This document shows positions 59,689-64,000 of a DNA stretch of 64,000 nt, in pieces (the first letter of the stretch is position 1; every line of letters starts with the position of its first letter). Location of the stretch: contig NZ_LT900021.1 in NCBI RefSeq assembly GCF_900198835.1, positions 2,046,001 through 2,110,000 of the forward strand. Reading direction: 5' to 3'. Both the position numbers and the translations under genes were made by a program. The stretch comes from Thermococcus henrietii. Its GTDB lineage: Archaea > Methanobacteriota_B > Thermococci > Thermococcales > Thermococcaceae. The notes under the pieces are model-generated. The model saw nothing but the letters and a program-made list of their open reading frames with translations, made no database searches and had not been told where the DNA came from.

Positions 59689-59698
59689 GGGGTTTTCT

Positions 59699-60465
59699 TT
59701 TCTAATTCTCTTTGAGTCTTATTGCAACCAACTTAGCAAAAGACAACCGCATAACCGAATACGACTTTCAATTCTCCTAGAGTCTTATTGCAACTTTGAT
59801 GTTTCGCAGTTTGGGGCTCAGTATGACACTGCTTTCAATTCTCCTAGAGTCTTATTGCAACTTTCGTTCTGCTCGTCATCTATGCATCGAAGCTCATCTT
59901 TCAATTCTCCTAGAGTCTTATTGCAACTCAAAGAGAACGGCTTATGTCTCTGAAAAGATTAAAGCTTTCAATTCTCCTAGAGTCTTATTGCAACAGCCAC
60001 GCTCAAACCCGAGACCAAACACGAACAGAAAACTTTCAATTCTCCTAGAGTCTTATTGCAACGTGGAAAAGTTGGGTCGTGTGGGGCTGGAACTTGGCTC
60101 TTTCAATTCTCCTAGAGTCTTATTGCAACGTGAACGCCAACCAGAAGGCGAACGTTACCGTTACAGCTTTCAATTCTCCTAGAGTCTTATTGCAACAGCG
60201 TTAGAGAAATCGCCGACGTTAAAGAGCCTCTCACTTTCAATTCTCCTAGAGTCTTATTGCAACTCAAAGAGAAAAGAGTCAAACTTATTCTCCGTAAGGG
60301 CTTTCAATTCTCCTAGAGTCTTATTGCAACCTCCCGAGGAAAGACCTCAAAATTTACGAGAGAGTCGCTTTCAATTCTCCTAGAGTCTTATTGCAACTTT
60401 GGGTGAGCCGTGTGGAGCTAAGGCCAATATCAACCCTTTCAATTCTCCTAGAGTCTTATTGCAAC
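59699..60465 (-). CRISPR. CRISPR array, 12 repeats and 11 spacers, no cas genes nearby
   Basis: Repeats are 30 bp. On the transcribed (minus) strand they start GTTGCAATAAGACTC and end GAATTGAAAG, the Thermococcales type whose crRNA 5' tag is ATTGAAAG. Repeat starts on the plus strand are 59699, 59765, 59832, 59898, 59965, 60033, 60100, 60167, 60234, 60301, 60368 and 60436; spacers are 36-38 bp. The eleven repeats from 59765 are identical. The one at 59699 differs at several bases and is the distal (oldest) end, which agrees with transcription from the right. No cas gene lies in the window. Confidence 0.97.
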
Positions 60466-60930
60466 AGGGGGCGAAACTCGTCCTTTCGCCCAACAAAGGA
60501 AGAAGGACCTCTCGATATTTAAGCCTTTCTGGAAATCGGGCTTTAACCCTGGCCTTTTGTGGCTTGTCCAAACCGCTTGATGGGCACTCCCACAAGTGCA
60601 AGCAACCTGATTAGCGCTTCCCCCAGTCGAGGGAATAGCTTACCGCGATTTCCCGAGGTGTTACTGACCTCTGTTGGGTCGTCCAACGGCTATCCTGCGT
60701 TTCTCCCAAAAACAATTTGATTTAAACAGGTTTTACGGTCGTTTAGGCGTTGGAAAGGCATCATTAAAACTGTCCGAAAATATCTCGTTACACAGACCAA
60801 CAAAATCATTCCAATAAGTTACGTCTACATAACCATAAAAATCGATTTCCGGGGTGGGCCTGTAAGAGCATTCTCCAGAGGAAGGCTAAAGTGGGCCGGA
60901 AAATTGTGGAAAACAGCACTCATCCGGATA
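60466..60930 (-). promoter_or_regulatory. CRISPR leader region
   Basis: About 465 bp without a gene between the newest repeat and the next CDS. A TATA GCTTAAATAT (minus strand, 60515-60524) would start transcription about 25-30 bp before the array. The stretch from about 60540 to 60720 is rich in short hairpins. I see no protein gene; the remainder to 60930 is AT-rich and has the 3' end of the UPF0201 gene at its right. Confidence 0.7.
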
Positions 60931-62810: not shown

Positions 62811-64000
62811 TCATCGAAGAAAGTCCTCCAGAGTCCCCTTTCTCTTCGGCTTTTCTTCCGTTACTCTTTTCTCGATTCCGAGGTAGCGGTAGATTCCGTC
62901 GAGGATTTTGGCACCTATGCCCTCGACTTCGAGAAGCTCCGCAGGTTTTGCGTTCGCTATCGCCTCAACGCTCGTAAAACCGGCGTTGTAAAGGGCTCTC
63001 GCCCTCTTCCTTCCGATGTTGGGAAGTTTGACAAGTTCGAGGAGCTCCTCGCGGACGCCGTGCTTCAGGCGAAGGTGCAGGTCGCGGAGGTAGTTCAGGA
63101 TTTCCTCCTTCGGCTCGAAGAGCTTGTAGAGCTCGATGAGCGAGTACATGAGCCAGTCAGCAAGCTCAAGGAGCCTGTAGAGGTCGCCGGGGTCTATGAG
63201 GTATGTCTCGTAAATCCTCGCCTCAGGAACCTCGTTAATCCAGTCGAGGAGAACCTTCGCCGTCTTCACCTGTCCGAGGAAGCCCTGGAAGCGCGAATCC
63301 TCGTAGTATGGTATGCTCGCGTAGAGCTTGTCCTCGAGTTCGTAGGCCAGGTCAAGGTAGTCCTCCATCTCGCGCCTCCTCGCTGTTAAATTCGCCATGT
63401 CAGGGGTTGAGGCTATGAGCTGGAAGATTCCGAAGGGGTTCGGATTCTGCTCGATTGCCGGAAAGGCGTCCTTGAACTTCTTGGCCGTGAGCGGGTCTAT
63501 GTAGAGCTGAGACGTTCTCCTGCCGAAGGGTAACGGCATGAAGCTGTCATCGAGGTCAAGGTCGATGAACTCGTTCTCTATGAGGAAGTAAACAACCTCT
63601 TTCGCTTTGTACTCGAGCGAGCTCAAATCCTTCCTTTGGTGGGCGTAGAAGGTCCTCTCAAGGAAGCGGACGAGCTCGGGGAAGTTTTTGATTCCGAAGT
63701 TGGTGATTAAGGCCAAAACCTGACTCCTGAAGGCCTGCTCGTTGGCGAGCATCGAGAAGAGCTTCTCAGGCTTCCCGCGGATGTAGCGCTCCATAAGCTT
63801 GCCCGGCTCGTCAGTTCTGGCAACTATTATCGCCTCGCCGTACTTGTCGTACCTCGGCCTTCCCGCTCTTCCCATCATCTGCTGGATTTCCAGAACGGGA
63901 ATGTCGGTCCAGCCGAAGCCGGCGTAGCGCTTGGTGTCGCGGATTATTACTCTGAATGAGGGTAAATTTACGCCCGCCGAATTGTGCACGATAAAGCCAA
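62811..64000 (-). CDS. hel308: DNA helicase Hel308, C-terminal part, with the end of an intein
   Basis: A superfamily 2 helicase acting on stalled replication forks. The visible part has motif VI EIQQMMGRAGRPRYDKYGE, the winged-helix and ratchet domains, and a helix-hairpin-helix (ELVKLPNIGRKRARALYNAGF). It ends in EEKPKRKGTLEDFLR, a C-terminus that may bind PCNA. The frame is open to the window edge; GTG 63989 is not a start. The edge codons read GFIVHN and then SAGVNLPSFRVIIRD: VHN followed by Ser is the end of an intein, and uninterrupted Hel308 has a TPTL-type sequence before AGVNLP. The helicase N-terminus and the intein body lie outside. Confidence 0.93.
   Translation of the reverse strand, partial: GFIVHNSAGVNLPSFRVIIRDTKRYAGFGWTDIPVLEIQQMMGRAGRPRYDKYGEAIIVARTDEPGKLMERYIRGKPEKLFSMLANEQAFRSQVLALITNFGIKNFPELVRFLERTFYAHQRKDLSSLEYKAKEVVYFLIENEFIDLDLDDSFMPLPFGRRTSQLYIDPLTAKKFKDAFPAIEQNPNPFGIFQLIASTPDMANLTARRREMEDYLDLAYELEDKLYASIPYYEDSRFQGFLGQVKTAKVLLDWINEVPEARIYETYLIDPGDLYRLLELADWLMYSLIELYKLFEPKEEILNYLRDLHLRLKHGVREELLELVKLPNIGRKRARALYNAGFTSVEAIANAKPAELLEVEGIGAKILDGIYRYLGIEKRVTEEKPKRKGTLEDFLR

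Follow-up and report, generated by a model that had tools for sequence, protein, structure and literature searches.

A full-length intein with a LAGLIDADG endonuclease domain in hel308 of Thermococcus henrietii and its distribution across Thermococcaceae

The hel308 gene of the heat-loving archaeon Thermococcus henrietii almost certainly holds a full-length, bifunctional class 1 intein, whose splicing would restore the Hel308 helicase and which homing would have brought into the gene. The DNA analyzed, called the window here, comprises 64,000 nucleotides (bases 2046001 to 2110000) of a one-contig genome of 2,155,760 bases that is 99.96% complete; sequence past its edge was read in that genome, which is designated G000, while other G numbers denote the genomes of relatives. 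On the minus strand from position 64000, the window's right edge reads tt GGC TTT ATC GTG CAC AAT / TCG GCG GGC GTA AAT, i.e., G-F-I-V-H-N / S-A-G-V-N, with the GFIVHN/SAG codons at 63998 to 63972. An earlier note on this DNA had read GFIVHN as the tail of an intein truncated at the window boundary, and the genome bears this out, since a complete insert of 403 amino acids could be read beyond base 64000. The features lying within the window are the following.

63981 to 64000, minus strand: C-terminal end of the Hel308 intein (GFIVHN at 63998 to 63981 plus two bases, 63999 to 64000, of the preceding codon), with the frame open across the edge and block G His402-Asn403.
63978 to 63980, minus strand: C-extein +1 residue Ser (TCG), the nucleophile expected for the second splicing step; a TCN Ser in 15 of 15 carriers.
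62811 to 63980, minus strand: Hel308 C-extein, the final 389 residues from SAGVNLP to the stop, with the part of RecA domain 2 after the insertion point together with archaeal domain 4 (PF21280, 1.3e-37) and the helix-hairpin-helix domain (HHH_5, 6.9e-13); matches to PRK00254 and NF001308.

The complete intein occupies genome positions 2109981 to 2111189, the latter corresponding to what would be window position 65189, and directly follows ...VITATPTL, so the helicase ATPTL expected ahead of the insert is in place. A single open frame of 1165 codons crosses both insert boundaries with Hel308 on either side: 331 residues of Hel308 (MKVDELPVDE...ATPTL), the 403-residue insert (CMHPETPV...SVGFIVHN), and then SAGVNLP to the stop. 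Because this long open frame is accompanied by matches of the insert to the LAGLIDADG_3 and intein N-terminal profiles, the GFIVHN signal at the edge is not due to chance. Without the insert, Hel308 has 720 amino acids, and the insertion point falls between Leu331 and Ser332, within the conserved sequence ATPTL/SAGVNLP in RecA domain 2, which corresponds to motif V in the common SF2 numbering. The insert differs in composition from its host, with a G+C content of 0.48 versus 0.56 overall and 0.55 versus 0.74 at third positions. The frame also has an ATG 41 codons ahead of MKVDELPVDE (genome 2112182 to 2112305); the likely start is MKVDELPVDE, where orthologues begin.

The host protein is identified by profile matches as Hel308, a Ski2-like helicase of SF2 that has domain 4 and a helix-hairpin-helix. 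It contains the Pfam domains DEAD (PF00270), Helicase_C, archaeal helicase domain 4 (PF21280) and helix-hairpin-helix (PF14520), and it scores 1372.8 bits against the NCBIfam model NF001308 (ATP-dependent DNA helicase; cut-off 1216). An intein-free relative 98% identical to the host aligns end to end (1 to 720) with the Pyrococcus Hel308/Hjm structure 2zj2. No second Hel308 copy was found in the T. henrietii genome, and the cell therefore presumably relies on splicing for this helicase.

The insert has the parts of both a splicing domain and an endonuclease; the intein blocks and the homing endonuclease that the earlier note proposed to look for to the right of base 64000 are all present (blocks A, B and F/G), the last as a LAGLIDADG domain. 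Block A provides the nucleophile Cys1, block B has its TxxH as TPEH at residues 62 to 65, and blocks F/G end in His-Asn followed by Ser (VYNLEVEDDESYSVGFIVHN/S); Cys1, TPEH, His402 and Asn403 are invariant in all 15 alleles. Two LAGLIDADG motifs, LLGLWIAEG (169 to 177, E176) and LRGLIEGDG (266 to 274, D273), each have an acidic eighth position, and the insert matches Pfam LAGLIDADG_3 (PF14528) at 2.8e-16. Scores of the splicing part are lower: NCBIfam intein_Nterm (TIGR01445; 7e-5, 23.7 versus 24.5) is slightly under its cut-off, Pfam Intein_splicing reaches 21.2 bits against a curated cut-off of 35.8, and Hint_2 is likewise below its cut-off. The shortfall of Intein_splicing, Hint_2 and TIGR01445 indicates a splicing domain that has diverged from what these profiles describe. 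A Hint fold is supported by an AlphaFold2 model built from a 15-row alignment (pLDDT 85.5, pTM 0.87, with the C-terminal eight residues poor at pLDDT < 50) and by its Foldseek matches to PI-SceI and VMA inteins. The best PDB fold matches were PI-SceI 1ef0 (E 1.8e-19) and the TliVMA intein 7qsu (1.1e-17), PI-PkoII was also recovered, and the endonuclease part of the model matches the fold of I-DmoI. A single-sequence search of the PDB gave PI-PkoII (2cw7) as its sole match (2.1e-9).

We infer both the splicing chemistry and the DNA cutting. Cys1 would form a thioester, Ser+1 would take over the N-extein, and Asn403 would cyclize with His402 assisting, joining the exteins into an intact Hel308. 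The LAGLIDADG domain would cut empty hel308 alleles, whose repair would copy the intein together with a short flank; the intein is probably able to copy itself into empty genes. Since the role of Hel308 is placed at stalled forks and no other copy was found in the genome, splicing efficiency could limit Hel308. For RadA inteins of the same order, splicing efficiency has been reported as limiting (PMC5790916).

The same insert is present at the identical point of hel308 in 15 of 94 Thermococcaceae genomes. In the 71 empty alleles that were read, ATPTL runs straight into S/A-x-G-x-N, and those of the nearest relatives have exactly the uninterrupted sequence ATPTL-S-AGVNLP predicted in the earlier note. 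The closest host genes, in G043 (98% protein identity) and G032 (97%), are both empty. No relative of the intein was found in the phylum outside the family at 1e-25. The earlier note was right that Hel308 inteins are known at this site: the carriers include G023, which is probably Thermococcus kodakarensis KOD1, and whose Hel308 intein is presumably the UniProt entry PI-TkoHel; the allele itself is thus not new, and it is now extended to one further species. A search of open papers returned none on a Hel308 intein. The G023 intein shares the gene, insertion point, 403-residue length and blocks of the T. henrietii copy, but its protein is 76% identical and its host haplotype is SAGINLPA rather than SAGVNLPS. 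PI-PkoII (the T. kodakarensis Pol intein, 2cw7) and archaeal VMA inteins (7qsu and 7qst) likewise combine a splicing domain with a LAGLIDADG endonuclease (fold E 4.6e-14 to 1.1e-17), whereas they interrupt other host proteins at other sites and are 15 to 19% identical in structure alignments. Inteins are well known in archaeal helicases (PMC8301817) and in Thermococcales repair proteins (PMC12713403); the aLhr2 inteins also split the RecA domain of a related SF2 helicase with a LAGLIDADG-bearing intein, but in another helicase family (PMC8301817).

A viral or plasmid carrier of the intein was considered and rejected: viral contigs contained no intein relative, and plasmid and phage matches were stretches 21 to 32% identical in other proteins. 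Among them, the methyltransferase Dmt of phage P1 (OP279344.1, 61915 to 62937) and of P1-like plasmids aligns over the whole intein query at ~25% identity, which suggests an intein-like or endonuclease insertion there.

Trees and silent sites provide good evidence that the intein jumps between related species. A single clade of carriers is rejected on the host tree (AU p 8e-6), presence and absence require at least 13 changes on the tree of 86 hosts, and intein and host trees disagree, e.g., in the placement of G039 and G048. The sister of the T. henrietii intein is that of G021, with 94% identity. At four-fold degenerate sites, these two genomes are 0.772 identical in the intein versus 0.583 in the host gene (p 4.5e-5), and comparison with the more distant G071 gives 0.574 versus 0.39 (p 3.6e-4).

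A footprint of homing was sought around the insertion point in 26 independent close host pairs, 9 of them carrier/empty and 17 like/like. In carrier/empty pairs, codon divergence, scaled to its level across the family, is highest no more than two codons from the insertion (ratio 0.93, z 4.5; mean over the gene 0.40), and the excess declines over ~10 to 20 codons. It is clear in eight of the nine carrier/empty pairs, T. henrietii being the exception, and absent from the 17 like/like pairs (p 6e-5). Such a peak is what short conversion tracts at the homing cut would leave, as would the replacement of occupied alleles by empty ones. T. henrietii showed no excess flank divergence in the pairwise test, so the entry of its own intein left no visible conversion tract. 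A candidate tract in this genome was also rejected, with just 9 donor-like sites (shared with G021 and absent in five near relatives) and no clear clustering at the insertion. Either the haplotype SAGVNLPS was common to donor and recipient beforehand or the tract was short.

The missing footprint in T. henrietii would also fit vertical inheritance, in which the ancestor of G000 and G021 had the intein and G043, G032, G024 and G019/G062 each lost it precisely; the two inteins are indeed sisters, and their hosts belong to one clade. We consider this unlikely, given that several precise losses would be required and that the intein exceeds the host gene in four-fold site identity, not only for G021 but also for G071. 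Homing from a related Thermococcus, after the split from the closest relatives, would be the most likely source of the intein in this species.

The alleles also differ in their apparent stage in the homing cycle. G085 and G073 have Lys in place of the first catalytic acid (E176K) and a deletion in block E that removes D273, while all splicing residues are kept, which from sequence looks like endonuclease decay with the splicing ends retained. The T. henrietii copy is full length with both catalytic acids in place. That it splices with an endonuclease already inactive, late in the cycle, has a precedent at this very site in those two genomes; it is nonetheless improbable in view of the two acids, the full length, the 94% identity to the G021 allele and the well-formed model. 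The sub-threshold scores of certain splicing profiles might even point to an inactive insertion or assembly artifact that leaves Hel308 broken. This we regard as extremely improbable, because the insert is in frame in a nearly complete one-contig genome, 14 other genomes have the same insert, the splice residues are all invariant, and the gene is the sole copy. One site in one family presents empty, freshly occupied and endonuclease-decayed stages of homing side by side.

The codon following the insertion raises the question of target choice. In all 15 carriers, the +1 residue is Ser encoded by TCN. The 71 empty alleles comprise 28 TCN, 17 AGY and 26 Ala, and no AGY or Ala allele has the intein. 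Alanine is unable to act as a splicing nucleophile, so no carriers with Ala would be expected. The absence of AGY is suggestive of target choice at the DNA level. TCN versus AGY gives a Fisher p of 0.006 with relatedness ignored, but phylogenetic pairing, which has low power, gives a median p of 0.25, with the direction always the same; TCN versus all others, phylogenetically paired, gives a median p of 0.03. Since the Fisher signal of TCN versus AGY fails phylogenetic pairing, this link is only a lead. It is possible, if on balance doubtful, that the endonuclease tells Ser codons apart, such that alleles with TCN are cut and then invaded, those with AGY resist while encoding the same protein, and those with Ala, unable to splice, are immune. 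If so, the local haplotype mix at the Thermococcaceae Hel308 site would be partly made by a selfish element. The site suits direct testing of natural homing conversion tracts and target-codon selection.

Residues 332 to 340 of Thermococcaceae Hel308 occur in a few haplotypes (SAGVNLPS, SAGINLPA, AAGVNTPA and AMGVNLPS), which switch between close relatives, and the codon state after the insertion site has undergone at least 24 changes on the host tree.

Elsewhere in the window, a CRISPR array at 59698 to 60467 has ~12 repeats (CTTTCAATTCTCCTAGAGTCTTATTGCAAC) with a spacing of 66 to 68 and a degenerate first copy; the ORFs called across it are not genes. Eight further T. henrietii genes have LAGLIDADG-containing frames: those for B12-dependent ribonucleotide reductase, MCM, replication factor C small subunit, RtcB, DNA topoisomerase I, family B DNA polymerase, ThyX and dTDP-glucose 4,6-dehydratase. 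The frames of these eight genes on contig G000:C1 are located as follows.

466770 to 469100
633337 to 635646
99391 to 99891
1803007 to 1803273
1011968 to 1012225
836479 to 836949
1054798 to 1054962
497582 to 497785

The dTDP-glucose 4,6-dehydratase is a metabolic enzyme, a rarer kind of intein host.
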